In this document: one piece after another, positions 30,944 through 53,801 of the stretch
How the letters are laid out: the number at the start of each line of letters is the position of its first letter
How positions within the stretch are numbered: position 1 is the stretch's first letter
Source: an uncultured Fluviicola sp.
GTDB lineage: Bacteria; Bacteroidota; Bacteroidia; Flavobacteriales_D; Crocinitomicaceae
Length of the DNA stretch: 64,000 nucleotides
Direction of reading: 5' to 3'
NCBI RefSeq assembly: GCF_902168135.1
Contig: NZ_CABHOL010000015.1
Span: 248,001-312,000 of the forward strand
Position numbers and translations under genes: made by a program
The notes under the pieces: model-generated
Database searches by the model: none
What the model saw: only the letters and a program-made list of their open reading frames with translations
Told to the model about the DNA's origin: nothing

Positions 30944-30949
30944 CCGCTC

Positions 30950-32116: not shown

Positions 32117-32182
32117 TTTACCACATAATGCACATAAAACAAATGGGAAATGTGCTGAATTGTTTTTTTGAGTATGTCCTGT

Positions 32183-32195: not shown

Positions 32196-32275
32196 TGATT
32201 TTGTTTTATTAGCCTGCTAGCAGGCACTCTTTGTTTCTCTGCGGTTATAAATTTCGCCTTGTTTAACCGCTAAGA

Positions 32276-32510
32276 GTGAACGCTTGCGCTATAGCTTGTG
32301 CCACCGCTAAAGCTTTGGCGACATGCGGTTAGCGAAGGAGCAAAGAACACAAAGGTTTGAGTAGTTATCTTGTTAAAAAGCAGTCTACTAATTTTCAATA
32401 TTCGTTACTTTCTTTCTCACTTTTTGGCACTACCTGTCTTAAGTACATAATTCCCCCTACAGGACGCATAATGCGAGTCCGGTAGTCTCGCTTTTTATCT
32501 GTGCATCTGA
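32276..32510 (+). repeat. Intergenic repeat, copy A (inverted partner at 53560-53792)
   Basis: Bases 32276-32360 match the reverse complement of 53708-53792 in 82 of 85 positions. Weaker, gapped similarity continues to about 32510, with shared words such as TCTTGTTAAAAAG and ATCTGTG/ATCTG. The 496-base stretch 32117-32612 holds no gene. It contains this repeat, the palindromes before it and a 13-mer (32572-32584) shared with the repeat at 22696. Copy A lies just beyond the 3' end of block C. Confidence 0.85.
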
Positions 32511-32612
32511 GTGAAATATCTTCTCTAATCCAGGACAAGACATTTAGAATAAAAGGGTTCTCAAAAAGAAATCTATGTGACCTAATTATCAATGTGGTTG
32601 AAAAAAGCCACT

Positions 32613-32978
32613 TTATTGGTAAGTTCCACTGAATTTCAAACAAACTCCTTCTGCTGTACTCAGCTGCCCGGAAACTTTCAGTGTTTGATCATCTTGCTCT
32701 GTTACGGTCATCTTAAAAGTTGCTTCCGGTGTATTTACCGGATTTAAAACTGCTAGGAATTTGCTGGTTGCAAGTGTTTTTAACCGGATCGGCTTGTTAA
32801 ATTGTGTTCCAAGGATTTCTTTCACCAATTCTAACTGCACAACTCCGGGAGTAACAGGATTATTTGGAAAATGCCCCTCGTAAATGCGGTGTTTCGGATC
32901 AATTGAAATACTTGCTTCAAGAACATTGTCTTCAAAATTCAAGGAATTGATCGTATAAAAAGTGTCTTTTAAAATCAT
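32613..32978 (-). CDS. 3-hydroxyacyl-ACP dehydratase, FabZ-like hotdog protein
   Basis: A 121-residue single-hotdog enzyme. The catalytic His36 is in YEGHFPNNPVTPGVVQLELV and Glu50 follows 14 residues later, the same spacing as in FabZ. It would remove water from each 3-hydroxyacyl intermediate to give the polyene double bonds. It is the last gene of the long minus operon that starts at 44901, and overlaps the LolA-like gene by one base. Confidence 0.87.
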   Translation of the reverse strand: MILKDTFYTINSLNFEDNVLEASISIDPKHRIYEGHFPNNPVTPGVVQLELVKEILGTQFNKPIRLKTLATSKFLAVLNPVNTPEATFKMTVTEQDDQTLKVSGQLSTAEGVCLKFSGTYQ

Positions 32979-33601
32979 TAGAATGTAGTGAATTTAGAGT
33001 CATTAATTGTACCGTTGACCTCCATGTTTGAAAAACTGTAAACCAATTTGTTGTCTTTATCGGTTTGCATAGTCAATTCTTTGATGGTGAGTTCTTTCTT
33101 TCCGAAAACAAGATTGATCTCAGAAACGTAACGCTTCATTTTATCGCTTTTCGGGGTAAGTACCAATTTGTAGTTTGATTTATTTTCGAAATAACTGATC
33201 CTGAATTCCTTTTCATTCAAAAATTCTCCGGTCATCATTTGTACCATCAGGCCTTGAATCTTCTTCACGACCATTTTGGAAGAAGCACTGCTTACTTCTT
33301 TACCTTTTTCCTGGAGTTTGACAGTTTTTCCGTTGATTAGTATGATCTGGTTTTCCGGCTTTGTTTTTTCCCAGCGGATTTTGTTTTCGCTTTTGTACCA
33401 CATTTTTCCCGAACCTTTTTGAGCATTGGTTAAAAGGGCGGAAGTGGCGGTTTCAGTGAAGTCTGCCTTGATTGCCTTGGTTTCTTTATGTTGTTTTTCC
33501 AGGGCCGTTTTGCATGCTTTAGGATCAGGGATTTTTGAATAATCCTGTGCAGATGCATTTACAGCAAGCAGAAAAAGGAGGAAACTACTTATTAATTTCA
33601 T
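32978..33601 (-). CDS. LolA-like outer-membrane lipoprotein carrier protein
   Basis: A 207-residue periplasmic protein with a Sec signal ending NASAQD. The mature part has the LolA half-barrel pattern: KAIKADFTETATSALLTNAQK, SGKMWYKSENKIRWEKT and PENQIILINGKTVKL. In aryl-polyene and flexirubin loci LolA-like proteins are thought to carry the hydrophobic product across the periplasm, rather than lipoproteins. It overlaps the deacetylase gene by 17 bases. Confidence 0.85.
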   Translation of the reverse strand: MKLISSFLLFLLAVNASAQDYSKIPDPKACKTALEKQHKETKAIKADFTETATSALLTNAQKGSGKMWYKSENKIRWEKTKPENQIILINGKTVKLQEKGKEVSSASSKMVVKKIQGLMVQMMTGEFLNEKEFRISYFENKSNYKLVLTPKSDKMKRYVSEINLVFGKKELTIKELTMQTDKDNKLVYSFSNMEVNGTINDSKFTTF

Positions 33602-34355
33602 GAATGAATTTTTTCAGATGTTCTTGCTTTGCAAAGATAATACCATTTGCTTGTGCCTGGGTAATGTATTCCTCCAGGATATCCGCAGTCTGCTCTAAAT
33701 TATCATGCAGCAGAACAATGCTTCCGGGTTTGGTTTTCATCAAACGTTTCAGCAAAGATTCCCGGTTTTTAAAAGAATCATACGAACGAACACTCCATGC
33801 AACAATCTTGAATTTCCGTCTCCTCAGTGCACGGGCAATTTTCGGATTTGTATAACCGATCGGAGGGCGGAAAATGGTGATTTTTTCCGATACCAGCGGC
33901 TCTATGTTTTTTGTAAACTGATCTATTTCGGTTGCTATTTTTTCGCTGTGAAGCATAGCAAAGAAAAGGGAATGATTTTGCGTATGATTGCCGATGCTGT
34001 GCCCTTCGGAAATGATCCGCTTTACAATTTCGGGGTGTTCCTGGGCTTTGTTGCCAATCATAAAAAAGATCGCTTTAATATCATGTTTTTTAAGCGTGTC
34101 CAAAATGCGTGGTGTCTGAACCGGATCAGGACCATCATCAAAAGTGAGAATGACTTCAGGACTGCTGTTCCGGAAAATGGACGGGTAGAAGTATTGAAAA
34201 CGCAGGAATACGATCCCGAAAACGAGAAAAACGCAGAAGTTGGAGATAACAAATGCTATCCAAAGCCACAGATAAGGACTGTTCCGGAAAATTAGAATAA
34301 CGATCAAAAGCGTGCTTAATGCAACTGCAATATTGAGTCTATGCTTCCACCTCAT
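33585..34355 (-). CDS. Polysaccharide deacetylase (NodB domain), membrane-anchored
   Basis: A 256-residue protein. Two hydrophobic segments within residues 10-50 anchor it. The NodB domain starts at EVILTFDDGPDP (metal-binding Asp pair), with HSIGNHTQNHS giving the HxxxH metal ligands and RPPIGYTNPKIARAL later. It is a family 4 carbohydrate esterase fold, so it removes an N- or O-acetyl group, or hydrolyses another small ester. Its role in pigment synthesis is not known to me. It overlaps both neighbours by 17 bases. Confidence 0.85.
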   Translation of the reverse strand: MRWKHRLNIAVALSTLLIVILIFRNSPYLWLWIAFVISNFCVFLVFGIVFLRFQYFYPSIFRNSSPEVILTFDDGPDPVQTPRILDTLKKHDIKAIFFMIGNKAQEHPEIVKRIISEGHSIGNHTQNHSLFFAMLHSEKIATEIDQFTKNIEPLVSEKITIFRPPIGYTNPKIARALRRRKFKIVAWSVRSYDSFKNRESLLKRLMKTKPGSIVLLHDNLEQTADILEEYITQAQANGIIFAKQEHLKKFIHEINK

Positions 34356-35274
34356 TTCTATTGATGAGCGTCAAGCCCAATTTATTGGATTCTAAATTAT
34401 TTACGATCAATATGCGCTTGTCGTCTGCATTCCCGATCAGCCAATCATTTGCCATATGCAGTGCGAAAGCAGATGCACTTTGGTAAAAACCGGTATAATC
34501 TGTGAAAGAAATATGGTTCTTGGCCAGGAATCTGAAGTCAGAACGCGCTTCCAGGATAAGATCAAGGTCTCCGGAACTGCAATTGTTTGCATCCAGGAAC
34601 TGATTGATAAGTGTTACAAGTGTTTCCTGGCTTTTGGTGGAAAAATAAACCTCACATGCCTGCACAAATGCAATGGAATTCCCCTTTTCACCGGACAATA
34701 CTGCAAACGTAGCACCGGATGTGAAAGGAAGATGCGTTAGGATCAGGGAACCGCGCAGTCTTTCCAAAAATGGAATGGCTTCATCAGCTGCCCCCACCAA
34801 AACTGATTTTTTCCCTTCATCGATGCACAAAAGACCATCTTTCAAGGCAACTTCGAATGAAAGTGCATTTTGAGTATGAGTCATGTTGTAAGCATGATTC
34901 TTGAGATCCAGGGAAATCTGTCCTGAAATAGTATTGTGTGTGCTTTGGATAAAAGCAGTCGGTGAAAGTACATCACCACTCACGGTATTAATAGTTACCA
35001 GGAACTTTTCGGTGTCTGTTAAACAGCCCAATGCCGTTCCTACGGAAATGGAATCAAATTCATTTGGGACTTTTTCCTGGCAGGCTTTGGAAGCCGTAAT
35101 TCCCATGCGTAAGATGGTACTCAGTCTTCGAAGTGCGGCAACCGGAATATAGTTCTTGTAATCCGGAGATATTAATTGGTTTTCAGCAGTTAAGGGCTTC
35201 AATTCATCCCAGATGTTCTCCTTTTGGAAGGAGTTCTGGTGTGTAATCGATTCGATATGTTGAATGAAGTACAT
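34339..35274 (-). CDS. Ketosynthase-like chain-length factor (second copy, no Cys)
   Basis: A 311-residue paralogue of the protein at 22796. It keeps DVLSPTAFIQSTHNTISGQISL but has YNMTHTQNALSFEVAL where a KS carries Cys. It follows its probable partner KS by one base. With the ACP at 36452 this forms the second ACP-KS-CLF cassette; here it lies with the polyene genes, so it may set polyene length. It is about 35 residues shorter than the first copy. Confidence 0.8.
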   Translation of the reverse strand: MYFIQHIESITHQNSFQKENIWDELKPLTAENQLISPDYKNYIPVAALRRLSTILRMGITASKACQEKVPNEFDSISVGTALGCLTDTEKFLVTINTVSGDVLSPTAFIQSTHNTISGQISLDLKNHAYNMTHTQNALSFEVALKDGLLCIDEGKKSVLVGAADEAIPFLERLRGSLILTHLPFTSGATFAVLSGEKGNSIAFVQACEVYFSTKSQETLVTLINQFLDANNCSSGDLDLILEARSDFRFLAKNHISFTDYTGFYQSASAFALHMANDWLIGNADDKRILIVNNLESNKLGLTLINRNEVEA

Positions 35275-35275
35275 A

Positions 35276-36451
35276 TTAAACTGCGCTTAAAATGATGCTT
35301 GAATTATTTCCCCCGAACCCGAAAGAGTTGGATAGGATGTGTTTGATTTCATGACCTTCCGAATAGTTCTTAACAGGAATAAGTCCTGTTTCTTCAATGG
35401 CCTGACCGAAGTTCAGGTTAGGAAGTAAAATTCCCTTATTCAGGGCTAAAATAGCAAACACAGCCTCAATTCCTCCTGAAGCCGCTAAGGTGTGTCCCGT
35501 ATATGATTTGGTGGAACTGAATGGAGGTACGGATGAACCAAAAACGGTTTTAATCCCGTGTGATTCTGAAAGGTCGTTGTTAGGCGTTGCGGTTCCATGT
35601 GCATTGATATAATCAATATCTGCCGGATTTAATCTTGCAACTTTCAGGGCACTTTTCATAGCAAGTGTTGCGCCGTATCCTTCCGGTGAAGAGGCTGTTT
35701 GGTGATAAGCATCTGAAGCATTTGCCCAGCCAGAAAGAACAGCCAAGGGCTTTTTACCGGTTTTCCGCATTGTTTCTTCGGTTTCCAGAACTAAAAAAGC
35801 GGCTCCTTCTCCCAGGTTGATCCCTTTGCGCGTTTCATCAAATGGCCTGCACCACTCTTCGTCGAAGATCATCAGTGATCGAAATCCTGCAATGGTAAAC
35901 TGGGAAAGTCCGTCTGTTCCACCAACCACCACACGGTCTAATTGCCCGCTTAAAAGCATTCTGGCGCCCAGCATAATGGAATTTGCGGCAGATGAGCACG
36001 CTGTGGAGATGGTATTGACATACCCCCTGATTCCAAGTTCTTGCGCAATTTGCTCGCTGGTAGTTCCGCTGGAATGGTTTTTATAAACATTCAGATCATC
36101 GCTTTCATCCTTCAGATAGTCCTTGTATGCAATTTCACTGACATCCATTCCGCCTACGGAAGTTCCGGAGATTAACCCGGTGCGGACCTCGGAGCTCAAT
36201 TCGTGTTCCCCGAAGGCTTCTTTTGCAGCGATCATTCCAAGCAGGGCCGTTCTGGATGCATTTTGGGTCAAACCGAAGCGCTCGATCAATTCCTGGTTGG
36301 TCCAACTGATTTCACCCACCTTAAAACGTTCCGTATAGGGTTTTCTGCCCTGTTTGATGCCTGTTTTTTCAGACTTCAAAGCAAGCAGGGTCTCTTCCAC
36401 ATTTTCACCGATGGAGGAAATAACGCCATATCCGGTAACGTAGATGCGCAT
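35276..36451 (-). CDS. Beta-ketoacyl-ACP synthase, FabF-like (second cassette)
   Basis: A 391-residue active condensing enzyme. Cys152 is in ISTACSSAANS, with His in NAHGTATPNND and STKSYTGHTLAASG, and it ends with SNSFGFGGNNSS. It is nearest in sequence pattern to the KS at 23824. The ATG follows the ACP stop immediately. Confidence 0.9.
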   Translation of the reverse strand: MRIYVTGYGVISSIGENVEETLLALKSEKTGIKQGRKPYTERFKVGEISWTNQELIERFGLTQNASRTALLGMIAAKEAFGEHELSSEVRTGLISGTSVGGMDVSEIAYKDYLKDESDDLNVYKNHSSGTTSEQIAQELGIRGYVNTISTACSSAANSIMLGARMLLSGQLDRVVVGGTDGLSQFTIAGFRSLMIFDEEWCRPFDETRKGINLGEGAAFLVLETEETMRKTGKKPLAVLSGWANASDAYHQTASSPEGYGATLAMKSALKVARLNPADIDYINAHGTATPNNDLSESHGIKTVFGSSVPPFSSTKSYTGHTLAASGGIEAVFAILALNKGILLPNLNFGQAIEETGLIPVKNYSEGHEIKHILSNSFGFGGNNSSIILSAV

Positions 36452-36706
36452 TTATTGATGTTTAGAAATGTAATCCGCTAAAGTATTCACCGATTGGAAG
36501 ATCTCTTTTCCTTCATTCGGGTCTGAGATTTTAATCCCGTAGTTCGAATCCAGCAAAACGATGAACTCAAGGGCGTCGATCGAATCCAATCCGAGTCCCT
36601 GATCTCCGAATAGCGGAGCATCGTCCTGAATGTCTGCAGGAGTAAGGTCTTCCAGGTTTAATTGCTCAATAATCTGAGCCTTTAGGTTTTCTTTTAAGTC
36701 ACTCAT
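36452..36706 (-). CDS. Acyl carrier protein (second cassette)
   Basis: An 84-residue ACP with Ser42 in LGLDSIDALEF as the pantetheine site. It is strongly similar to the ACP at 25029. It overlaps the shrunken ketosynthase-like gene by 8 bases and abuts the KS gene. Confidence 0.93.
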   Translation of the reverse strand: MSDLKENLKAQIIEQLNLEDLTPADIQDDAPLFGDQGLGLDSIDALEFIVLLDSNYGIKISDPNEGKEIFQSVNTLADYISKHQ

Positions 36707-37307
36707 TTCTGTATTGTTTAATTAGTGTTGACAGTTCAAGCTCCATTGAATATGCTTCTTTTTCAGAATCAGTTAGCAAAAATAGGAAACATTCTTGTTC
36801 ACCATTCGTTTTTGCCTCTATCCAGGCGCATAAACAGCAATTATTACCTTTATTTAACGCCATTTGTGCCCATTCGGAAAAATGTGCCGGATTAAAAGTT
36901 TCTTCTATGAAAAAACAATTTTCTCCGTACCACTTATGACGAATGCACAGTTCACCGGTAACAATATTCGGTAGAGTATAAACGAAAAGGGAAGGGCTTG
37001 GGTTTTTCAACTGTTCGTAGCTTTCTACAAACAGGTTGTCCGTATTCTGACTGGCAGAACTATTTGCAAAGATCAATTGCAGGTCGTTTTCCAGGTCTGC
37101 GTCTTTGGGAAAAAACGGAAGCAGCAATTCTGTTCCGATGAACGCCATTTTGGAAAGAACATCCATCTTGTAGAACTTCGGGTACTCAGCTCCGAGCTGC
37201 TGGTAAGCAGATTTCAGCGGATTCTCTTCTCCGGCTGTATTGTAAACCAGTTTTCCGTTCAGGAAAGTTCCTTTCGGGCATACATAACTATGTGCTAAAA
37301 TCTTCAC
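36699..37307 (-). CDS. Shrunken ketosynthase-like protein without active site
   Basis: A 202-residue protein. The segment FYKMDVLSKMAFIGTELLL, then LIFANSSASQNTD and NPSPSLFVYTLPNIVTGEL, matches the pattern of the first half of ketosynthase and chain-length-factor proteins. After CIRHKWYGENCFFIEE, however, the fold seems to end and no nucleophile motif follows. The start is GTG at 37307, overlapping the KS stop by 4 bases (GTGA). It may be a scaffold for one of the KS dimers or ACPs. I am confident that it is coding, less so of its relation to KS. Confidence 0.65.
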   Translation of the reverse strand: MKILAHSYVCPKGTFLNGKLVYNTAGEENPLKSAYQQLGAEYPKFYKMDVLSKMAFIGTELLLPFFPKDADLENDLQLIFANSSASQNTDNLFVESYEQLKNPSPSLFVYTLPNIVTGELCIRHKWYGENCFFIEETFNPAHFSEWAQMALNKGNNCCLCAWIEAKTNGEQECFLFLLTDSEKEAYSMELELSTLIKQYRNE

Positions 37308-38377
37308 GATTGTTTTTGTAAAATTAAACTGGCATTTCCTCCTCCGAAACCGGAAGCGGTTTTCAGCACGGTATTCAAGGCTTTCTGCTCTATGTGCTGA
37401 ATAATATTGAGTGGAACTGAAGTTCCGGTTTCTTTAAATCCAAGGTTCGGGAATAGGGTGTTTTTCTCCATGGAAACAATACTCATAATGATTTCCAAAA
37501 CACCTGCAGCCCCAAGTGTATGTCCGAAATAACCCTTCATGCTGTTCAACGGGACCTGGTCTAGGTTCATTCTGCCAAAAGCAATGCTCTCCATTTCATC
37601 ATTGAATACGGTAGCTGTGCCATGGGCAGAAATAAAATCGATATCCGAAGCCTTTTTACCGCTCCGGCGGAAAGTTTTTTTAATAGAACGCACAAGACCT
37701 TCACCTGTTCTGGAAGGCCCGGAAATGTGATTGGCATCGTTGGATGACGAACCACCCTTATACAGAACGGCAAAATCGGCTGGTTTCTGTGTCGAAACCA
37801 ATACAATGCCGCATCCTTCTCCCAATACGGTTCCGTTCCGGCTTTTATCAAATGGTTTGCAGGTCTCGTTGCTTAAAGCAAACAAGCTTTGAAATCCGTA
37901 TGAAACAAATTCGGAAACAGCATCAATCCCGATCACCAGTACTTGGTCATATTTCCCTGCAAACAGGTAGTCTGCTGCTGTATTGATGGCAATTACTCCC
38001 GAAATACAAGCATTTGAAATGATCAGTACGTCTGTTGCCGGGAAAAATTCATGAACGATGGAAGCCGTCTCTGCGAAAGTATCACCGGGAAGCAAGTCGA
38101 TATTTCCCTTAGTGGAACTTACGATAACTGCTGTTTTCCCGGAGATTTCCGGGTACGCGTTTTTAGCTTTCTCAAGTGCCTCACGCAGAAGTGTATCGTA
38201 ACGGTTACCTGTAATTTCTTCTCTTTTGGCCAAAGGAATTGCTGTTTGCTGGAAACCTGCTTTTTCATGAATCTTAATTCCTGAAATGCCGTTTTCGAAC
38301 GCATCGAAATGCTGTTCAATTGTATTTCCTAATGGAGTGACCAATGAAAGTGCCGATATGTAAATGGGTTTATCCAT
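37304..38377 (-). CDS. Beta-ketoacyl-ACP synthase (short form)
   Basis: A 357-residue KS. The nucleophile Cys124 is in ISNACISGVIA, with catalytic His in SAHGTATVFND and SMKGYFGHTLGAAG. It is about 40 residues shorter than the other FabF-like enzymes, mainly at the N-terminus. It overlaps the thioesterase gene by 8 bases and the shrunken KS-like gene by 4, so the two KS-fold proteins are made next to each other and may form a heterodimer. Confidence 0.87.
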   Translation of the reverse strand: MDKPIYISALSLVTPLGNTIEQHFDAFENGISGIKIHEKAGFQQTAIPLAKREEITGNRYDTLLREALEKAKNAYPEISGKTAVIVSSTKGNIDLLPGDTFAETASIVHEFFPATDVLIISNACISGVIAINTAADYLFAGKYDQVLVIGIDAVSEFVSYGFQSLFALSNETCKPFDKSRNGTVLGEGCGIVLVSTQKPADFAVLYKGGSSSNDANHISGPSRTGEGLVRSIKKTFRRSGKKASDIDFISAHGTATVFNDEMESIAFGRMNLDQVPLNSMKGYFGHTLGAAGVLEIIMSIVSMEKNTLFPNLGFKETGTSVPLNIIQHIEQKALNTVLKTASGFGGGNASLILQKQS

Positions 38378-38798
38378 CGATCCAGTCTTGCTTTTCTTCC
38401 CAAATACGGTAGAATTCGGGTTTGATTAATTCCAGGGTACGATCAGAAGTAAACATGAATACCTGCATGGTCATTCCTGTTGCTGCAATCTGTTTGGTTG
38501 CGTTATTGATTACTTCGTAACGAAACACGATTTTCGCTGAATCGTGTTGTTCCAAAATAACATTGACTAAAGCTCCTTCTCCGTAAAAGATGGAAGCTTT
38601 GTGTGAGATCTCTGATTTTACAATCGGAATGAAATATCCCTGGGCGTGGACATCCAGGTACTCGATCCCGTAATCCCTTCCGAATTGCTCGCGTGCATCC
38701 TCGAAGAATTTCAGATAATTTCCATGCCAAACAACGCCCATAGCGTCTGTTTCACTGAAACGGATCGGAATAAGAATGGATGATTTCAGGATTTTCAT
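38370..38798 (-). CDS. Acyl-CoA/acyl-ACP thioesterase, 4-hydroxybenzoyl-CoA type
   Basis: A 142-residue hotdog protein. IRFSETDAMGVVWHGNYLKFFEDAREQF has the catalytic Asp (ETDAMG) and the HGNY signature of the YbgC/4HBT family. Thioesterases of this kind occur in aryl-polyene loci, where they may release or edit the aryl acyl chain. It overlaps both neighbours (8 and 4 bases). Confidence 0.86.
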   Translation of the reverse strand: MKILKSSILIPIRFSETDAMGVVWHGNYLKFFEDAREQFGRDYGIEYLDVHAQGYFIPIVKSEISHKASIFYGEGALVNVILEQHDSAKIVFRYEVINNATKQIAATGMTMQVFMFTSDRTLELIKPEFYRIWEEKQDWIDG

Positions 38799-39214
38799 GC
38801 CAAAACAATTTTCATTTGACAGGTCAAAAGCACTTTTCCGTTGGATTTCGCAGTTCCTTCCACCAGGTGAATGGTATCAAAAGTACTGAGTACTTTAACG
38901 GATGTCTCAATCCGGTCATTTTCTTTTGCGGCATCTTCTACCTGCACCTGGGTTACAGCTCCGATAAAACCTAGTTTTGGTTCGCCGCCTTCTTCCAGGC
39001 TGTTCAAATAACCAAAACCTGCCGCACAGGTTTGTGCAATATTCTCAATCAATGCTGATTCGGACAGGACCTGACTTTCCAGGAACAAATTGTCCGGTGC
39101 AACCTGGAATTCGGTTTTGAAACCCGCTTCGTCTGCCGACAAAAGGCTGTCTATCATCACGAAAGGAGCTCTTTGCGGAATGATGGATGTGATGTTTTCT
39201 TTGTTAATCAACAT
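38795..39214 (-). CDS. ApeP-like hotdog dehydratase family protein
   Basis: I took the ATG at 39214 (139 residues); the longer frame begins with TTG. The fold is hotdog: IPQRAPFVMIDSLL, then ALIENIAQTCAAGFGYL with the conserved Glu, and LGFIGAVTQVQV. Where FabZ has its catalytic HFP loop, this protein reads FLESQVLSES, so the His is missing, as in the ApeP group of aryl-polyene dehydratases. It may act with the FabZ-like protein at 32613. Confidence 0.75.
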   Translation of the reverse strand: MLINKENITSIIPQRAPFVMIDSLLSADEAGFKTEFQVAPDNLFLESQVLSESALIENIAQTCAAGFGYLNSLEEGGEPKLGFIGAVTQVQVEDAAKENDRIETSVKVLSTFDTIHLVEGTAKSNGKVLLTCQMKIVLA

Positions 39215-40076
39215 AGTATTCAAAAAAGTTAAACCATTGAGTGGGACTTGCTTTCACTTGTTCTTCCAGGTGTTTGGCATAAATTTCTGCAATTTTTTCA
39301 GGGGATTCGAACGTTGTGATCGGATCCGTAGCGCTTAATTCATAGTGCGTACTTCCTGCTTTGACTGCGTATACAAAGGTAAGCGGAACTTTGAATTTAT
39401 GTGCCATAATAAATGGTCCGGCAGGGAATTCTGCAAATCCGTTCAGAAAAGGCAGTTTAAAGTTCTTTTGGCCGGCTGTTGTTCTGTCCGCATGCAGAGC
39501 GATGAGTTCGTTGCGTTTTAAAGCCTGGTGGATCAAAATCAGGTGGGAAAGATCGTCTTTGATAGGAATCAGCTGGTATTGGGATTTTCCGGCAGAATCT
39601 TCTATAAAAGCCTTAATCTTTTGGACTTCGGCATCAAGCATCAATATATTGATCTTGAGGGTAATTCTTTCTCCAAGCAGGTTTCCGGCATTTTCCCAAT
39701 TTCCCAGGTGCGCCGAAAACAAGAATCCGCCCTTTCCGGCTTCATTCATTTTGATTAAGGCTTCTTCGTTGTTAAAACGAAAGGTAAAAATCTTTTTTCG
39801 CGGAGTTTTAAGTGCTATCCGGTCAATCAATGTCTGTCCGAAAACATACAAATTCCGTGCGGTTGCTCTTAATGCTTTTCCTTTGCTATAATTAAATCCT
39901 TTTTGGTAAAAGGAAACTAAAGCTTTACGCGGTTTGCGCGAAAATAACAGGAAATAACCGGAAACTCCGATGCAGAAAAAGTAAGCAAAGCGAACCCCTA
40001 AAAATCGAATAGAGTAAATAAAGAACTTATATCCCCAAAGAGAACCTTTGGTTTTACCATCCCATTTTTGTTCCAT
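39204..40076 (-). CDS. Lysophospholipid acyltransferase, LpxL/HtrB-like
   Basis: A 290-residue membrane-associated acyltransferase. The N-terminal hydrophobic helix is FAYFFCIGVSGYFLLF. The HX4E catalytic motif is in SAHLGNWENAG, and HADRTTAGQKNFKLPFLNG and FPAGPFIMAHKFKVPL follow, as in LpxL homologues. In aryl-polyene loci such an enzyme is thought to attach the polyene acyl chain to a lipid. It overlaps the ApeP-like gene by 11 bases. Confidence 0.86.
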   Translation of the reverse strand: MEQKWDGKTKGSLWGYKFFIYSIRFLGVRFAYFFCIGVSGYFLLFSRKPRKALVSFYQKGFNYSKGKALRATARNLYVFGQTLIDRIALKTPRKKIFTFRFNNEEALIKMNEAGKGGFLFSAHLGNWENAGNLLGERITLKINILMLDAEVQKIKAFIEDSAGKSQYQLIPIKDDLSHLILIHQALKRNELIALHADRTTAGQKNFKLPFLNGFAEFPAGPFIMAHKFKVPLTFVYAVKAGSTHYELSATDPITTFESPEKIAEIYAKHLEEQVKASPTQWFNFFEYYVD

Positions 40077-40082
40077 CCACTA

Positions 40083-40328: not shown

Positions 40329-40345
40329 CGTTTGTAGGTAACTCT

Positions 40346-41569: not shown

Positions 41570-41570
41570 T

Positions 41571-43828: not shown

Positions 43829-43851
43829 GTAAATTATGAGTGGGGAGTGAC

Positions 43852-45313: not shown

Positions 45314-46909
45314 ATGAACGAAGAATTTGACGTTACCATCATCGGCTCGGGTGTAAGCGGTTTACTTTCCGCAGCATTATTGTCCAGATCAGGAATGAAA
45401 GTCCTTGTATTGGAAAAACACTACCTGATCGGGGGATATTTACAGGGTTTTGAACGCAAAGATTTTGTTTTTGATACTGCTATTCACTGGTTAAATCAAT
45501 ACAACGAGGAAGGAACAGTAACCCGTGTTTTTAAAATGCTGGGAGAGGATTACCCGAAACCTCAATTGATGAAACGTATTCAACGGCATATTTCCACCAA
45601 TCACGATTACCTGCTTACGAATAATCCGGATGAATTGAGGGATCGGTTGATTTTGGATTTTCCGCATGAAAAGAAAGGAATTGAGCGATTTTTTAAAGTT
45701 GCCAGGCGTATTGCGAAGGTTTCACTCCGGTTTCCGGAATTCTTCCAATCCATAGAAACCAAGTCTCCACTGGAAATACCATTCTTTCGGTTGAAACAGC
45801 TTGGAATCATCTATCCGTTGATTCCTTATGCTATCGGTGGTGACGATGTGAAAAAAGGATTGAGCAAATTTTTCAAGGACCCGGCGCTGCAGGAACTTTT
45901 CTGCACGGAGCGCGATCTGCTTTCATGCATCTTCCCGATTGCCTGGGCATATAATTCGGACTACCAAAACCCGCCCATCGGTGGAAGCCAGGTGATTCCT
46001 GCATGGCTCGAAAAACAGGTTGTGCCGGAGAAATGCGAGATCCGATTAAGCTCTGAAGTAGTTGGATTTGATTTTGAGAATGAACTCATAACAGCGGTCC
46101 GCTATAAAAATCGCGGGAAAGAATACCAGGTAAAAACGAACTATGTTATTGCGGCCTGTGATGTCGACTTCCTGTACCGGAAATTAGTACCACAGCACCT
46201 GGTTCCGCCAAAATTCTTCGAAACATTGAATGAATCGGAGATGTACAGTTCTTCGGTGACTATATCCGTGGCTTTGGACTGTACGGCAGAAAGTTTAGGT
46301 TTCGGGCACGAATTGACCCTTGTTTGTGAGGAATCCAGTACCCGTGATGAGCACAGTTCCGGTGATCCGCACAAATCTGCGATTTCTGTTTTGGCGCCTA
46401 CTGTCCGCGATCATACACTTGCCCCGGAAGGAATGGGCACTGTTACGCTGTATGTTCCGGCGTGGATGGATTATATGAACAACTGGCAGACAGAAAAGAA
46501 TGCCAAGGGAGATTTTGTTCGGACCGAAGCCTATAAGAAATTGAAGGATGACTTTGCCCGGATCATTTTTGAACGGGTAGAAGCTAAAATGTGTCCGGAC
46601 CTGCGTAAACACATCTTGTTTTACGAAGTGGCTACTCCGGTTACTTATTACCGCTATACGGGTAATAAGAACGGTTCCATGATGGGAACACGTCCCGGGA
46701 AGAAAAACATGCAGAGCAAAATTGCGCATTACCGAACGCCGGTGAAAAATTTAATTGTGGGCGGTCAGTGGGCAGAATTGGGCGGTGGTGTTCCGATTGC
46801 CGTTAAAACAGCTTTCAATGCATCCTTAATTGTGCTGAAGAAATGGGACAAACCCAAATTCAAAAAACTGCTAAATGCATACAAAAAAGGTACAAAACTC
46901 ACAGCATGA
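45314..46909 (+). CDS. CrtI/CrtISO-like FAD-dependent oxidoreductase
   Basis: A 531-residue flavoprotein of the phytoene desaturase and carotenoid isomerase family. The N-terminal dinucleotide fold is TIIGSGVSGLLSAALLSRSG, then VLVLEKHYLIGGYLQGF. The C-terminal FAD site is NLIVGGQWAELGGGVPIAV. It may desaturate or isomerise the polyene chain. It heads the plus-strand operon that runs to 53507. A near neighbour at 50771 is of the same superfamily but clearly different in sequence. Confidence 0.83.
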   Translation: MNEEFDVTIIGSGVSGLLSAALLSRSGMKVLVLEKHYLIGGYLQGFERKDFVFDTAIHWLNQYNEEGTVTRVFKMLGEDYPKPQLMKRIQRHISTNHDYLLTNNPDELRDRLILDFPHEKKGIERFFKVARRIAKVSLRFPEFFQSIETKSPLEIPFFRLKQLGIIYPLIPYAIGGDDVKKGLSKFFKDPALQELFCTERDLLSCIFPIAWAYNSDYQNPPIGGSQVIPAWLEKQVVPEKCEIRLSSEVVGFDFENELITAVRYKNRGKEYQVKTNYVIAACDVDFLYRKLVPQHLVPPKFFETLNESEMYSSSVTISVALDCTAESLGFGHELTLVCEESSTRDEHSSGDPHKSAISVLAPTVRDHTLAPEGMGTVTLYVPAWMDYMNNWQTEKNAKGDFVRTEAYKKLKDDFARIIFERVEAKMCPDLRKHILFYEVATPVTYYRYTGNKNGSMMGTRPGKKNMQSKIAHYRTPVKNLIVGGQWAELGGGVPIAVKTAFNASLIVLKKWDKPKFKKLLNAYKKGTKLTA

Positions 46910-46919
46910 GATATTTTTG

Positions 46920-46927
46920 TAGCTTTG
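46920..46927 (+). promoter_or_regulatory. Possible internal promoter box before the trifunctional gene
   Basis: TAGCTTTG, with another match TATTTTTG just upstream at 46912-46919, lies 38 bases before the ATG at 46966. The 56-base gap to the preceding gene allows independent transcription. Confidence 0.4.
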
Positions 46928-46965
46928 CCGCCTAATAATTTCTCCTCTTTCCGAAACTAACACTC

Positions 46966-49900
46966 ATGATCGGTCAAATTTGTGCTCGAATAGTTGAATT
47001 TTTTCTTAAAAAAAGACTTGTTTTTTGGGGAAGTTTCATGCTTGTGCTTGCTTTTTTGTTTGTTGGTGTTTCCAAATTGAAGATCAACGAAGATCTCTAT
47101 GCCATTTTTCCGCAGGGAAAGGAATTCAAAAAGTTTAGCGACATCGTTCAGAAGAATAAACTGAATAAGCAGGTAGTTTTCTCTATCGAAGCGCAGGAAG
47201 ATGAGGAAGTCACGCTTGAAAAACTGGAAGAACTGAAAGCTGACCTGGAAAAGCAATTCTCCAAAGAACTAAAAGATGTGGAGGTTGTAAAGTCAGTAGA
47301 TGAGGGTGCCTTGATCGCATTCCTTCAGAAAAGTTCGCTGTACAACCTGACAAATAAGGATTACGAAAAGTTACAGGAAAAACTTCAAAAAGATTCCATT
47401 GCAAGGGGATTGAAACGAACTGCGGATTTATTAACCGGACCAAATGCTTTCTTCGTAAGCAAATTGGCTGCAAACGATCCACTGGGATTGTTTTACGGAC
47501 AATTGAAGCAGTTGAATCCGAATGGTGATTCCAGTACCTATATTGTAAAGGACGGGGTTGTTTACTCACAGGATGAACGCTATGCTTTTTTCTTCGGAAC
47601 TATTGACCTGAACCAGAAGGACACCAAAAAGCTGGAGAAATTTGCGGACCGTTTGGAAGGTTTTAAGCAAACGAAAGCCAAGGAAAAAGGACTGAACTTT
47701 GATTATTTCGGAACTTTCCAGATCGCTGTTGCAAACGCAAAACAAGTCAAGTCGGATTCGTTTCTAACTGCAATTATCAGTATAACAGCTATTTTGCTGC
47801 TGCTGATTTTTTATTACAGAAGTGTTTTGGCTCCTTTCTATTTTCTGCTTCCCGGCTTTTTCGGAATCCTGAGCGGGGCTGGATTGGTGGGTTACCTGCA
47901 TCCTGAGATATCGGCAATTTCGCTGGCTACCTCTTCTGTTTTACTTGGAATTGTACTGGATTATTCTTTCCACTTCTTTACGCATTTGAAGCATTTGGGA
48001 AGCGTGGTTAAAACGGTGAAAGAGATCAGTTCACCGATGATGCTTGGTAGTTTTACAACCATTGCTGCACTTGGGGCTTTACTTTTCACTAATTCTGTAG
48101 TTCTTCAGAATTTCGGATTAATTGCACTTTGTACTTTGTCGGGATCGGTGCTTTTTACCCTGCTTTTCCTTCCGGTATTGATCGAAAGCCTGGGAATCCG
48201 AATCAAGGACAAAAACAACTACAAAGTTAATTTTAAACTAAAAAAATCGTTTGTAAGAGTCTCGTTTTTACTGATCACCCTGGTCTCATTGGTGTTTTTA
48301 TATAGGTCATCCGATGTGAATTTTGATTCGGATATGAACAACTTGTCGTTCCATACTCCGGAGCTAAAAGAGAAAGAGAAGTTTTATACAGGCATCAACC
48401 CGAATTCGGATAAAAAACTCTTTGTTTTTTCATCTGCTCCAACGAAAGAAGCAGCCCGCGCTCAAAACGACGCGGTTTATCAAACATTTGTATCTGCAAA
48501 AGAACAATACGGGATTTCGGAATTTGTTTCGTTGTCGCCTTATCTTCCTTCCGATAGAACGCTGAATGAATCACAAAAGAACTGGCGTCAATTCTGGAGT
48601 GCCAATCCGAAGGTGGCAGCTGAAATCAAAGAGCTTGCTCCAAACTACGGATTGAATGCAGCGGGTTTTGAACCGTTTTTTAGTTCCACCGAATCACTTT
48701 CTTTCGATAAAAAGGAAGGTGAGAACCTGGCAAAGGAAATCGGGCTGAGTAAATTTGTTTCGGAGGACGAGGGAAGACATACTTATGTGACTTCTATTAC
48801 CGTTAAGAAAGACAAACAGGAACTTGTTAAAGGAGAACTCGATCGAATCGATGGAATTTTTGTCCTGGATATTTCAGAAATGGCCAAATCGATGCTGAAT
48901 GTAGTGAAACAGGATTTCGATTACCTGTTCTTGTTCTCATCACTGCTTGTATTCTTTTCCCTTTTGATCATTTACGGAAGGATCGAATTGACTTTATTTG
49001 CGTTCTTCCCAATGGTTTTGGGCTGGATCTGGATCCTGGGAATTGCAAGCATTTTTGATATTCCGTTCAACTTCATCAATATCATTGTTGCAACCTTCAT
49101 TTTCGGTTTGGGAGACGACTTCAGTATCTTCACCACCGACGGACTGATCCAGCAGGCCAGAACAGGAGTGAATTCCCTGAAATCAACACAATCGGGAATC
49201 ATCCTTTCGGGAATTGCAACCATGATCGGGACAGGAGTGCTCATTTTCGCAAAACATCCTGCTATTCATTCCATCGGAACGATAAGTGTTATTGGGATCG
49301 GGTCTATCATGCTGATTACTTTATACGTTCAGCCCCGGGTTTACAACTTTTTTGTGCTGAACAGGAAGAAAAAGGGCCGGGGACCGATTACCTTTTTCTA
49401 CTTCATTTATAGTTTGCTCTTATTTTTCTACTTCTTTGTCGGAAGTCTGATCCTGAATATCCTGTTGATCTTCGTGTTGATTCCAACTCCAATCAGCCGC
49501 ATTAAGAAACAGGAAATACTGAACTTCTCCATTTCCAAATTGGCGAAATCTACCTTGTATGCCGGTCTGCATGTTGAAAAGAGAATTATTGACAGGCAAC
49601 GGTTGAATTACAGGGATCCAAGTATCATCATCCCGAATCACACCTCGTTTTTGGATATTTTGGTAGTGCTGATGCTTAATCCCAAAACGATTATTATGGT
49701 TAAGAAATGGGTATACAATTCGCCTATTTTTGCTCCTTTTATTCGGTATGGGGGTTATTTATTTGCAGAAGAGGGTGCCGACGGAAATTTGGGAGAAATC
49801 AAAAAACGGATCGGCGAAGGTTATTCCATCGTTATTTTTCCTGAAGGAACACGTAGTCCGGATGGTGAAATCAAGCGTTTTCATAAAGGAGCATTTTATA

Positions 49901-50769
49901 TTTCAAAGGAACTGAATATTCCGGTTCAGCCTTTACTGATTTTAGGCAATCACGAAGTGAACCCGAAGAATGACCTGATCATCAATCAGGGGAAAATTTT
50001 GGTAAAACCACTGAGACGCATGCGCGCATTGGAAAGAGAGTCTTACAGTGATTTTTCCAAACGGGCAATGAAGGTAATGCGTGCCGAAATGGTAGAATTC
50101 CGAAAAGAATACGCGGATACATCTTTTTATACCCGCAAGGTACTTGAGAATTACTTGCTAAAGGGTCCGGTTTTGGAATGGTATGTCCGTGTAAAATGGA
50201 TGATGGAACGCAAGAATTTTGATTTCTACAACCACTTGATCGGTGATCGAAAACGTATTGTGGATGTGGGTTGCGGCTATGGTTATCTTTCTGTTTTCCT
50301 GCATTATTTCGATCCTTCACGTGAAATAATCGGGATGGATTACGACGAAGACAAGGTTGCTGTTGCAGATAACTGCATTAAGAAATCTTCCGGGTTGAGT
50401 TTCCACGCTGCCGATATTCGGGAATGGGACATGCCGGAAGCGGACGTTTATTTCTTTAATGATGTGATCCACTACCTGCGTCCGGAAGAACAGCTGGAGT
50501 TATTGAAAAAAGTCAATACGAAACTGGGAGCAAATGGAATTATCGTAATCCGTGATGGAATCATCGAGTTCCGTGACCGATTGAAAAACACCAAATTAAC
50601 AGAGACGCTTTCCACAAAATGGTTTAATTTTAATAAGACGACGAATGATCTGTCATTCCTGTCTGCAAAAGAAATAGAGCGTTTTGCAAACGAGAACGGA
50701 TTTGGTTTCGAATTGATCGAGCATTCATCCAAGACTTCGAATGTATTGATGATCCTAAAAAAACTTTGA
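46966..50769 (+). CDS. Trifunctional MMPL transporter - PlsC acyltransferase - SAM methyltransferase
   Basis: A 1267-residue fusion. Residues 1 to about 800 are an MMPL/RND exporter: a helix at 20-40, a periplasmic domain, helices from about 265, a second periplasmic domain, and helices from about 648 with FIFGLGDDFSIFTTDG. Residues about 850-1060 are a PlsC-type acyltransferase (NHTSFLD at 889-895, FPEGTRSPDGE near 957). Residues about 1090-1267 are a class I methyltransferase (IVDVGCGYGYL near 1099, FFNDVIHYL). In E. coli aryl-polyene loci such functions are separate genes. It would export, acylate and methylate the lipid product. Confidence 0.9.
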   Translation: MIGQICARIVEFFLKKRLVFWGSFMLVLAFLFVGVSKLKINEDLYAIFPQGKEFKKFSDIVQKNKLNKQVVFSIEAQEDEEVTLEKLEELKADLEKQFSKELKDVEVVKSVDEGALIAFLQKSSLYNLTNKDYEKLQEKLQKDSIARGLKRTADLLTGPNAFFVSKLAANDPLGLFYGQLKQLNPNGDSSTYIVKDGVVYSQDERYAFFFGTIDLNQKDTKKLEKFADRLEGFKQTKAKEKGLNFDYFGTFQIAVANAKQVKSDSFLTAIISITAILLLLIFYYRSVLAPFYFLLPGFFGILSGAGLVGYLHPEISAISLATSSVLLGIVLDYSFHFFTHLKHLGSVVKTVKEISSPMMLGSFTTIAALGALLFTNSVVLQNFGLIALCTLSGSVLFTLLFLPVLIESLGIRIKDKNNYKVNFKLKKSFVRVSFLLITLVSLVFLYRSSDVNFDSDMNNLSFHTPELKEKEKFYTGINPNSDKKLFVFSSAPTKEAARAQNDAVYQTFVSAKEQYGISEFVSLSPYLPSDRTLNESQKNWRQFWSANPKVAAEIKELAPNYGLNAAGFEPFFSSTESLSFDKKEGENLAKEIGLSKFVSEDEGRHTYVTSITVKKDKQELVKGELDRIDGIFVLDISEMAKSMLNVVKQDFDYLFLFSSLLVFFSLLIIYGRIELTLFAFFPMVLGWIWILGIASIFDIPFNFINIIVATFIFGLGDDFSIFTTDGLIQQARTGVNSLKSTQSGIILSGIATMIGTGVLIFAKHPAIHSIGTISVIGIGSIMLITLYVQPRVYNFFVLNRKKKGRGPITFFYFIYSLLLFFYFFVGSLILNILLIFVLIPTPISRIKKQEILNFSISKLAKSTLYAGLHVEKRIIDRQRLNYRDPSIIIPNHTSFLDILVVLMLNPKTIIMVKKWVYNSPIFAPFIRYGGYLFAEEGADGNLGEIKKRIGEGYSIVIFPEGTRSPDGEIKRFHKGAFYISKELNIPVQPLLILGNHEVNPKNDLIINQGKILVKPLRRMRALERESYSDFSKRAMKVMRAEMVEFRKEYADTSFYTRKVLENYLLKGPVLEWYVRVKWMMERKNFDFYNHLIGDRKRIVDVGCGYGYLSVFLHYFDPSREIIGMDYDEDKVAVADNCIKKSSGLSFHAADIREWDMPEADVYFFNDVIHYLRPEEQLELLKKVNTKLGANGIIVIRDGIIEFRDRLKNTKLTETLSTKWFNFNKTTNDLSFLSAKEIERFANENGFGFELIEHSSKTSNVLMILKKL

Positions 50770-50770
50770 G

Positions 50771-52294
50771 TTGAACCCGGGACAAAAGATAATAGTAATC
50801 GGTAGTGGTATCGGCGGCTTGGTGAGCGCTTTGGTACTTGCTAAACATGGTTATAAAGTTCAGGTCCTGGAAAAAAATCACCAGATCGGTGGTTCTCTGC
50901 AGGTGTTCAGCCGTGACAAAAAAGTATTCGATACCGGTGTTCACTATGTCGGCGGATTGGATAAAGGAGAAAATCTCTACCGCATTTTCAAGTATTTGGG
51001 AATCTATGACGACTTAAAGATGAAACGCCTGGATGAGCAAGCGTTTGACATCATCCGCCTGGCAAACGGCAAAACAGTAAGTCATGGAATAGGTTATCAA
51101 AACTTTACGGAACAATTGAAAGCCAGTTTCCCGGAAAATGCCGGTGATATCGACCAAATTGTTCATGAAATACAAGTATATTGTACCTATTTCCCGCTTT
51201 ACAATATTGAACTGGAATCGGAGATCAATTACGTGGAACATACGGAAGTATTGGAAGTTGGTGCCTGGGAGCATCTTGCCTCTTTAACCGACAATGAAGA
51301 TCTCATCAAAGTAATCCTGGGTTCAGGGCCGCTTTATGCCGGAATAAAAGGAGTTACGCCATTTTACGTGGTTGCCCTGATATTGAATAGTTTCATCAAA
51401 GGCAGTTATCGTTTTATCAATGGAGGTTCACAGATCGCCAAACTGCTGAAGAAGAAAATTTCAGAGAATGGCGGAGAAGTTTTGAAAAGGAAAGAAGTAA
51501 CAGGCGCAAATTTCAATGAGTCGGGAACAATAGAGTCCGTTATCTGTTCAGACGGAAGCGAGTTTTCCTGTGATTTTGTGATCTCAAACTTACATCCGAA
51601 GGAAACTATCAGCCTGCTGGGAAAAGAGCGTTTTAAAACCGCTTACACGAATCGGGTGAATGCATTACCGAACACGATCGCATCATTTATGGTGTATTTA
51701 TCGCTGCATGAAAATACCCTTCCGTATTTCAACTCCAATTATTACGATTATTTCACCGATAACATTTGGAACGAAGAGTTCCATTTTTCGGAAGAGTGGC
51801 CTCAGATGACCTTTACCTCTGCCCAGGTTTCCAAAAACACGAAGGAATATGCAGAATCTCTTTCAGTGATGTGTTACCTCGACTTTAATGAATTTAAGAC
51901 CTGGGAAGATTCCGTTCGGACCATTGTTAAGGAAGGAACACGTGAGGAGGCTTATGAAGCCTTTAAAAGAGCATGTGAAGAGCGTATTTTGGTCCGCCTT
52001 GAAGAACGTTTTCCCGGAATCAGATCGAAAGTAAAAAATTGCTATTCTTCTACTCCGGTTACTTACCGGGATTACGTTTCCACCCCAAATGGTTCCATGT
52101 ATGGGATACAGAAGGACTTCAAACACACCCACAAGACACAGATTAATACAAAAACGCATATTCCGAATTTGTTCCTTACAGGGCAAAACATCATTTTCCA
52201 CGGAATTTTGGGAGCTACCATTGGTGCTCTTGTAACATCTTTTAATTTTGTAAACAATAAGCAAGTAATAGAAAAAATCAAAATGTATGACTAA
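50771..52294 (+). CDS. Phytoene-desaturase-like FAD-dependent oxidoreductase
   Basis: A 507-residue flavoprotein. The start is a TTG one base after the stop of the trifunctional gene, so translation is probably coupled; an ATG in a useful position is lacking. The FAD fold is IIVIGSGIGGLVSALVLAKHG, with VLEKNHQIGGSLQVF, and TFTSAQVSKNTKEYAE and NLFLTGQNIIFHGILGAT follow at the C-terminal FAD site. The substrate is presumably a polyene or resorcinol intermediate. Confidence 0.83.
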   Translation: MNPGQKIIVIGSGIGGLVSALVLAKHGYKVQVLEKNHQIGGSLQVFSRDKKVFDTGVHYVGGLDKGENLYRIFKYLGIYDDLKMKRLDEQAFDIIRLANGKTVSHGIGYQNFTEQLKASFPENAGDIDQIVHEIQVYCTYFPLYNIELESEINYVEHTEVLEVGAWEHLASLTDNEDLIKVILGSGPLYAGIKGVTPFYVVALILNSFIKGSYRFINGGSQIAKLLKKKISENGGEVLKRKEVTGANFNESGTIESVICSDGSEFSCDFVISNLHPKETISLLGKERFKTAYTNRVNALPNTIASFMVYLSLHENTLPYFNSNYYDYFTDNIWNEEFHFSEEWPQMTFTSAQVSKNTKEYAESLSVMCYLDFNEFKTWEDSVRTIVKEGTREEAYEAFKRACEERILVRLEERFPGIRSKVKNCYSSTPVTYRDYVSTPNGSMYGIQKDFKHTHKTQINTKTHIPNLFLTGQNIIFHGILGATIGALVTSFNFVNNKQVIEKIKMYD

Positions 52295-53507
52295 AGAAGT
52301 TGATGTTGTTGTAATTGGTGCAGGTCCTGCCGGTTCTGTAGCTTCCTCTAAATTGATTAAAGAGGGTTTAAAAGTTTTGGTTTTGGAAAAGATGCAGTTC
52401 CCGCGATTTGTAATCGGTGAAAGCTTATTGCCGCACAGTATGGATTATTTGGATGAGTTAAATCTTCTTCCGGCTGTAGAAGCTTTGAATTTCCAGGTGA
52501 AAACCGGAGCATGCTTCTATCATGACGGTGAGCGCTGTGATTTCTTGTTCGAAAACCAATTCACGGATGGCTGGTCATACACATTCCAGGTTAAACGCGC
52601 TGATTTTGATCACGCATTGATTAAAGAAGTTGAAAAACAGGGGGCGGAAGTAGAATTCCAGGCTGAGGTGACAAATGTAAATACTTCTGCAACGACACAA
52701 GTAGTTACTTACCGCGACAGCAACGGCGATATTCATGAAGTTCATTGCCGCTTTGTTATGGATGCAAGTGGATACGGACGTGTACTTCCGCAAATGTTCA
52801 ACCTGGAAGTTCCGGTTTCAACACCACCTCGCGGAGCAGTTTTCGCACACCTGGATGACACCAGAAGAACCCCGGAAGACGGAAGGAATATCTTTGTTCA
52901 CGCATTCAATGACAATACTGCCTGGATTTGGTCCATTCCTTTTTCGGATGGAACCGCGTCTGTAGGGATTGTCGGAAATAAAGACTTTGTGGAGGAATGC
53001 TATGCAGACGGTGGAAAGCTTTTCAAGCAAAAAGTAGCTGAATTCCCGGGATTGAACGGACGTTATGATGGTGTTGAGTTTATGTTCGAGCCGCGTCTGA
53101 TCGTTAATTATGCGGTTTCTGTAAAACAGGTTTACGGAGAAGGTTACGTGCTTTGCGGAAACAGTACGGAATTCCTGGACCCAATCTTTAGCTCCGGAGT
53201 AACATTAGCGATTTCTTCAGGTTACAAGGCTGCTGCCCTGGTTGCCAAGCAATTGAACGGCGGACAAGTGGATTGGGAAAATGATTACAGCGCTGTTCTT
53301 AAGAAGGGGATTGATGTATTCCGAACTTATGTACTTGCTTGGTATGAAGGGACATTGGGTGATATTTTCTTTAGCGAGAAGATCGATGAAACGATCAGAC
53401 AACAAATTTGTTCGGTATTGGCAGGTTACGTTTGGGATGAAACGAATCCATTTGTCAAAAAGCACAATACACTGGTAAATGCGGTGGCACACATTGTGAA
53501 AATGTAA
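52287..53507 (+). CDS. Halogenase-type FAD-dependent monooxygenase (WxWxIP)
   Basis: A 406-residue enzyme. The FAD loop is VVVIGAGPAGSVASSKL (residues 8-24) with FPRFVIGESLLPHSMDYL. Lys72 is in NFQVKTGACFYHDG, where flavin-dependent halogenases carry the lysine that directs hypochlorous acid. W213-I-W-S-I-P218 in TAWIWSIPFSDG is the WxWxIP motif that separates halogenases from ordinary monooxygenases. Chlorinated flexirubins are known, so ring chlorination is the likely reaction; this is inference. It overlaps the preceding gene by 8 bases and is followed by a strong terminator. Confidence 0.72.
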   Translation: MTKEVDVVVIGAGPAGSVASSKLIKEGLKVLVLEKMQFPRFVIGESLLPHSMDYLDELNLLPAVEALNFQVKTGACFYHDGERCDFLFENQFTDGWSYTFQVKRADFDHALIKEVEKQGAEVEFQAEVTNVNTSATTQVVTYRDSNGDIHEVHCRFVMDASGYGRVLPQMFNLEVPVSTPPRGAVFAHLDDTRRTPEDGRNIFVHAFNDNTAWIWSIPFSDGTASVGIVGNKDFVEECYADGGKLFKQKVAEFPGLNGRYDGVEFMFEPRLIVNYAVSVKQVYGEGYVLCGNSTEFLDPIFSSGVTLAISSGYKAAALVAKQLNGGQVDWENDYSAVLKKGIDVFRTYVLAWYEGTLGDIFFSEKIDETIRQQICSVLAGYVWDETNPFVKKHNTLVNAVAHIVKM

Positions 53508-53528
53508 GAATATAATTGGAATCTTGCA

Positions 53529-53557
53529 GGCGCGCAATGCATTGCGCGCCTTTTTTG
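53529..53557 (+). terminator. Strong terminator of the plus-strand operon
   Basis: A perfect 22-base palindrome (53529-53550, G+C-rich arms GGCGCGCAA/TTGCGCGCC) is followed by TTTTTTG. It is 21 bases after the halogenase-type gene. Confidence 0.9.
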
Positions 53558-53559
53558 TT

Positions 53560-53792
53560 TACCACAGATACACAGATTAAAAGGGCACTTACCAGTTGCC
53601 CTATGGGAAGCAAAGAGACGACCAGTATTAAGACAGTTAACACCAAAAAAGTACATAAGAAGGTAACAAAGATTGAAATTTAGATTACTTTTTAACAAGA
53701 AGGATATTCAAACCTTTGCGTTCTTTGCTCCTTCGCTAACCGCATGTAGCCAAAGCTTTAGCGGCGGCACAAGCTATAGCGCAAGCGTTCAC
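53560..53792 (-). repeat. Intergenic repeat, copy B (inverted partner at 32276-32510)
   Basis: The reverse complement of 53708-53792 matches 32276-32360 in 82 of 85 positions. The rest is related but decayed. It lies between the operon terminator and the 3' end of the PaaK-like gene and encodes nothing I can recognise. Copies A and B point in opposite directions and bracket blocks C and D (32613-53507). Confidence 0.85.
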
Positions 53793-53801
53793 AACCACAA
53801 T

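Follow-up and report, generated by a model that had tools for sequence, protein, structure and literature searches.

Inverted repeats around a predicted polyene gene cluster of an uncultured Fluviicola sp. as probable members of a dispersed repeat family with a 32/33-nt REP-like unit

Invertible DNA segments carry inverted repeats at both ends and a site-specific recombinase, while single-strand transposition of the IS200/IS605 type proceeds without target duplication and with a fixed left flank. Excerpts of PMC3733652 define two superfamilies of repetitive extragenic palindromic (REP) elements by their GTAG and CGTC tags, the CGTC type, which includes the Rickettsia palindromic elements (RPEs) RPE-4 and RPE-6, having a terminal CGTC, a stem of 8-9 bp and a CCA tail, with some Bacteroidetes listed. 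Atypical REPs without GTAG beside tnpA-REP genes, mostly of Bacteroidetes, and REPs that lie within tnpA-REP genes and leave the reading frame intact are described in excerpts of PMC6006769, and in-frame insertion into unrelated proteins is described for RPEs and other intragenic REPs in excerpts of PMC3733652 and PMC10969869. The present study concerns a pair of inverted repeats that brackets a predicted polyene gene cluster of 21 kb in an uncultured Fluviicola sp. (assembly GCF_902168135.1; 4.38 Mb in 56 contigs). The window, i.e. the whole stretch of 64,000 nucleotides analysed, is C15:248001-312000 of this genome (contig NZ_CABHOL010000015.1); positions without a contig are those of the window, and C, G and L numbers are labels for contigs, genomes and loci.

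The pair very probably consists of two copies of a dispersed composite repeat, which arrived after the cluster in two convergent 3' gaps and have no cluster-specific job. The arms agree in 82 of 85 positions (32276-32360 against the reverse complement of 53708-53792), a value given in a preliminary description of the locus and confirmed by alignment. In a repeat search of the window the ungapped arms reach 32276-32387 (plus strand) and 53681-53792 (minus strand), giving 112 nucleotides (nt) of 91% complementarity around a spacer of 21,293 nt, the longest of the four inverted pairs listed for the window. Gapped alignment extends them to 32276-32446 and about 53625-53792 (about 170 nt), and a laxer alignment carries on through both gaps with no clear end; the similarity thus does continue past 85 bases as had been described, but the proposed reach of about 235 bases is not confirmed as a boundary. 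The longest exact word common to both arms is 28 nt. Judged inside the window alone, the similarity of the arms is far above chance; judged genome-wide, it is one pair among many.

In its own genome the 85-mer has 23 matches, of which 19 include a core of about 60 nt, and a 371-nt query gives 41 matches there at E 1, some of them to other modules of the composite repeat. The 19 copies form 171 possible pairs, and by likeness the one in the window shares fourth to sixth place (82 identities in the same 85-nt frame, gapped alignments counted). When 19 copies were placed at random on a circle of genome size, a neighbouring pair lay within 21.5 kb in 83% of the trials, and in opposite orientation in 57%. 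In a family-level sample with up to four candidates per genome scored, matches occur in 14 of 200 genomes (own included) and in 6 of 24 genera, and the option of a dispersed intergenic family, one of three considered in the preliminary description, is the one upheld. A model of the 32/33-nt unit at the core of the repeat (R1) finds at least 106 matches in 10 of these 14 genomes at E 0.01: at least 35 in the own genome, at least 26 in Flavobacteriales bacterium UBA5869 (G129), a sister metagenome-assembled genome (MAG), at least 10, 9, 7, 6, 6 and 5 in six others and single weak ones in two; four genomes have none. These counts are lower bounds, the first look having taken the best 150 scored candidates per genome. 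An exact 22-mer scan of the contigs of GTDB r220, which may leave the own or very near genomes outside, returned only UBA5869 with three stretches.

The order of arrival is indicated by the relatives. The block was traced through 13 other genomes of the genus, and in seven of them (G010, G104, G080, G088, G096, G030 and G059) both edges are seen, with the same neighbours and the same orientation as in the window; in G118 the right edge alone is seen, and in G070, G124, G046 and G112 nothing strongly matches the 1267-aa marker protein. The unit model, run with default filters and E up to 1 on the cluster stretches of eight relatives (the seven and G118), found no match, only the two window copies. 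The left gap (32117-32612, 496 nt) measures 56-322 nt in six relatives and is extended in G030 (C49, L129) by about 12 kb of additional DNA from the glycosyltransferase gene to the left end of the cluster; the right gap (53508-53801, 294 nt) holds other dispersed repeats in some relatives. Since seven relatives hold the cluster at this place without the unit, the repeats look younger than the cluster position, and most likely the cluster was in place before them.

The setting of the arms is as previously described: both are intergenic and lie on either side of two polyene operons. They occupy gaps between convergent genes, from 32116 to 32613 and from 53507 to 53802. With diverging operons inside and inward-facing neighbours outside, the block has a convergent 3' gap at each end, a setting in which dispersed repeats should be tolerated. 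Copies would have settled in the two gaps that end the polyene operons, and the bracketing of the cluster would follow from operon layout and chance.

The core unit is an imperfect palindrome of 32 or 33 nt with the consensus, from aligned copies, of approximately GTGCC(A/G)(C/T)CGCTAAAGCT(A)TTGGCGACATGCG(G/A)T, and it is also found without the rest of the composite repeat. Most of 34 aligned copies start with GTGCC or GCGCC. The window copies lie at 32298-32329 on the plus strand (R1 57.8 bits) and at 53739-53770 on the minus strand (51.3 bits), each preceded by CTT and followed by TAG; both have the 32-nt form, a length that is no multiple of three. Flanks and frames were examined in 80 of the 106 units, including 34 of the 35 from the own genome; 15 of the 26 left out are from UBA5869, 13 of those scoring below 40 bits and one being its copy in a helicase-like gene discussed below. 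TT directly precedes the unit in 77 of the 80, C directly follows it in 67, and the four bases before it are GCTT in 51. A stem ACCGC/GCGGT pairs in all of 30 sequences, 12 of which show a double change from C-G to U-A, and its covariation score was matched by none of 500 shuffles; the stem was proposed by eye from the same 30 sequences in which it was scored, and as related sequences can yield covariation without structure, few events may underlie it. An inner stem has little covariation support.

Two genes are found filled in some genomes and empty in others. The helicase-like gene (AAA_12; C25:62270-64087, L022/L160) carries 11 extra residues in the own genome and in UBA5869, absent in seven relatives (L160-L168): the filled protein reads NPD-RMSPTASAMVQ-GSF, against NPEGSF in four relatives and close variants in three. 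In the second gene (C26:53393-54589, L020/L169) the unit is present in the own genome and the site is empty in UBA5869 (L170), the difference being exactly 33 nt and VVEAPKT becoming VV-DRMSPTASAMAQ-APKT. A target duplication is visible at neither site. At these two sites, which are empty in relatives, the core went in between TT and C, in agreement with the flank statistics.

Insertion into genes follows a narrow pattern. Long open frames, here those of at least 200 codons in which the unit has over 30 residues to either side, contain 19 of the 80 units, every one read in the same frame; each orthologous copy counts separately in this number, which by eye corresponds to about 12 genes. All 19 measure 33 nt, as do 29 of the other 61. 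They split a GAA (Glu) codon in 17 cases and GAT in two orthologs, and only one frame is used, yet three to five of their six frames are free of stops. A further copy (L047) has the same frame and misses the threshold narrowly at 199 codons. Under a looser rule (more than 150 codons) L006, L015 and L058 also fall in open frames and use a different frame; two of them lie within about 27 residues of the frame start and one in a frame of 170 codons, and we judge all three to be non-coding. Further in-frame units of 33 nt (L208, L209, L210, L212, L213 and L218) belong to unrelated proteins and read D-R-[MV]-x-P-x-A-S-A or variants, and in another genus (G020) two tandem in-frame units, which stand outside the 80, lie just ahead of the SpoIIE domain of a TPR/SpoIIE-domain protein (L045:1445-1543). 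At base 12 of the unit, 17 of the 19 long-frame copies have G and 55 of the 61 others have A; the intragenic copies thus seem either to form a lineage of their own or to be under selection.

Taken as a whole, the core is likely to be a mobile peptide cassette of 33 nt, so far undescribed, in flavobacteria. It would enter between TT and C and survive in genes almost only where it splits Glu (GAA), converting E into D-RMSPTASAMA-Q or something close to it; some dozen unrelated proteins, among them the helicase-like one beside a conserved stretch, would in this way have gained 11 almost identical residues, in convergence with the Rickettsia palindromic elements. Titles and abstract beginnings of open-licence papers, among the matches listed, contain no description of the unit. 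The in-frame copies provide an opening on how proteins tolerate nearly the same inserted peptide, and filled and empty sites in sister genomes make insertion of the smallest mobile units directly testable.

Comparison with the described systems places the unit in the REP/RPE-like kind as a new member. Like the REPs and the REPINs associated with RAYT (TnpA-REP) genes it is a short palindrome present in tens of copies, mostly outside long open reading frames (ORFs), with no visible target duplication and in a genome that has two Y1_Tnp genes. Its size and copy number (32/33 nt, at least 35 own matches, a 5-bp stem in 30 of 30) fall in the range of the GTAG-type REPs, which are multicopy palindromic repeats of 20-40 bp; however, an unpaired terminal GTAG is absent and neither of the two Y1_Tnp genes is flanked by copies of the unit. 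The CGTC type, taken by its definition in the excerpted text, also differs, the 34 aligned units having by eye neither the tag nor such a stem. The unit thus departs from REPs and REPINs in the lack of a conserved tag, in an ordinary folding energy and in Y1 genes that are unflanked. With RPEs it shares in-frame insertion into otherwise conserved proteins (19 of 80 units lie in long frames, and two genes have empty orthologs), but phylum and sequence are different, the length is only 33 nt, and the 19 copies keep to one frame, with 17 splitting GAA. The IS200/IS605 type is matched in the near-constant TT on the left and in the missing target duplication of the two filled/empty comparisons; the unit contains no transposase, and a shared mechanism is putative. 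Mobilisation was probably by single-strand, REP-like transposition through a Y1/HUH-type transposase acting in trans, and the atypical REPs beside tnpA-REP genes, mostly of Bacteroidetes, together with the frame-preserving REPs inside such genes, count in favour of this.

The own genome has two Y1_Tnp genes (L034 and L035). Ownership of the unit by a RAYT was considered and rejected, as L034 has different palindromes and neither Y1 locus bears the unit. Those of L034 (C15, at about 505 kb), AAGCTAGC...GCTAGCTT on one side and GAGCGA...TCGCTC on the other, are unrelated to the unit. The Y1_Tnp gene of L035 (C36; 1222-1821 of the locus) seems to have a palindromic sequence within its reading frame, as in the tnpA-REP subclass 2.4 of the excerpted PMC6006769.

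UBA5869 (320 contigs, 84% complete, including DJFP01000210.1 and DJFP01000248.1) is 96-98% identical to the own genome in the compared stretches, and its contigs C104, C207 and C109 (L116, L117 and L153) show the 21-kb block gone from the window site. The glycosyltransferase gene there adjoins the AMP-binding gene with less than 100 nt between the stop codons. A run of N cuts off the last 33 nt of the AMP-binding gene, so that their link to the remainder of the gene is a scaffold join. The block itself (32612-53596; 96-97% identity) lies inverted about 90 kb from the old place, between homologs of the genes at C15:189297 and C15:189844, which we take to be a glyoxalase-like gene and metG, respectively. 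It is found on two abutting contigs, C207 running from the right end of the block down to window position 43566 and C109 from 43589 down to 32612, where it continues into metG. In G010 and G104 the target region is present and free of the block, and the UBA5869 arrangement is therefore regarded as derived. The unit model found no copy at the old or the new site, and nothing ties the relocation to the window repeats. The hunch of a movable segment in the preliminary description thus holds in that the block apparently can relocate, and inverted, but it did so without these repeats. Between two genomes this close, an entire 21-kb pigment cluster would have moved and inverted, leaving its old site closed.

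A working inversion switch, in which the arms recombine and thereby reverse the 21-kb segment, is very unlikely. The inverted orientation of the arms, their near identity, their placement at both outer ends and the inverted, moved block of UBA5869 speak for it, and inverted repeats at both ends are what the pair has in common with invertible segments. The latter also carry a recombinase, none of which appeared among the 28 window proteins scanned with Pfam; the repeats here are dispersed, all seven relatives showing both edges have one orientation with no inverted form in place (themselves lacking the repeats), and the unit is missing from the cluster edges of the relatives and from both UBA5869 sites. 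The longest exact run is short, and, as the divergent operons would turn over as one, each would keep its promoter. Even less probable is an origin of the arms as terminal repeats, or as scars, of a composite element by which the cluster arrived: the arms do lie close to the block ends and one relative, UBA5869, has no block at the window site, but its arrangement looks derived, seven more distant genomes hold the block between the same two genes with the unit at neither edge, and the arms are members of a family with many copies elsewhere. An inversion switch and an insertion mark, which take up two options of the preliminary description, are accordingly rejected on the synteny of the relatives; the window pair is probably not a cluster-specific flip switch, and would be at most a weak substrate for rare homologous inversion.

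The relocation in UBA5869 raises alternatives of its own. Recombination between older dispersed intergenic repeats, located at the end of the cluster and at the metG site, is a tentative possibility; it might have run through two nested inversions. The new right junction bears a repeat of another family, short stretches of which match the right cluster gap of G096 (19 nt at 95% and 14 nt exactly), and in the empty target of G104 a similar repeat begins, by eye, at the same point. BLAST at E 0.01 gave no link between the G104 repeat and that of the UBA5869 junction, however; a 25-nt match between the two genomes appears to be ordinary flank that the own genome has in common with G104 and UBA5869, the three UBA5869 junctions yielded no repeat that all of them share, and the MAG is fragmented. 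Its fragmentation also bears on an assembly or binning artefact, which is unlikely, and more so than recombination between such repeats: short runs of N occur in all three contigs, the closed old site rests on 33 nt and a scaffold link, and the moved block is divided over two contigs that abut inside it. The three junctions (old site closed, new left and new right) nevertheless give one consistent picture, their joining stretches are free of N, and each marker gene has one strong match in UBA5869.

Several observations weigh against a pair of ordinary dispersed copies moved by a Y1/HUH-type enzyme. Copies show no preference for convergent gaps, the 23 own matches comprising four convergent and two divergent positions and the others tandem or inside an ORF (orientations taken from simple ORF calling, with no gene finder). 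RNAalifold gave a consensus without any double change on 30 copies, and five single DNA strands folded no better than shuffles (z from -0.63 to 0.97). No R1 match occurs in the loci of about 3 kb around the two Y1_Tnp genes, and the unflanked Y1 genes and the want of GTAG and CGTC tags count against such mobilisation. The window arms share flank beyond the unit and are thus closer relatives than most copies, and gene conversion from one end of the cluster to the other may have caused this. Finally, the sister MAG moved this very block, so that some link to the end repeats cannot be wholly dismissed. Two dispersed copies that came after the cluster nonetheless remain the preferred explanation of the pair, and the repeats can no longer be used to infer the boundaries of the cluster or the history of its insertion. 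The pair itself is real but ordinary, and the in-frame habit of the unit and the UBA5869 relocation are worth more.

The segment inside the arms consists of two divergently transcribed operons, minus strand then plus strand, with a gene content that fits polyene blocks. The left operon (32613-44901, minus strand) encodes FabA-like, LolA, deacetylase, ketosynthase, thioesterase, acyltransferase, reductase, aromatic amino acid lyase and O-methyltransferase proteins, the FabA-like gene (32613-32978, minus strand) adjoining the left arm on its right side. The right operon (45314-53507, plus strand) encodes FAD oxidoreductases, an MMPL/acyltransferase/methyltransferase fusion and a Trp_halogenase-like protein, the gene for this halogenase-like flavoprotein (52287-53507, plus strand) lying to the left of the right arm. 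The outer neighbours are a family 2 glycosyltransferase gene on the left (30941-32116, plus strand) and an AMP-binding (PaaK-like) gene on the right (53802-55043, minus strand).

Other repeats were also seen in these genomes. Cluster-edge gaps of several relatives (L122, L126, L127 and L117) contain a second dispersed family, whose ends resemble TTTACCACAAATGCGCAAAT...ATTTGTGGTAAA. In one orthologous composite repeat, compared by eye between UBA5869 (C182, L039) and the own genome (C21:238209-238307, L031), different palindromic inserts stand at one point, the unit in one genome and a CTTGCCTTTG...CAAAGCAAGG insert in the other.

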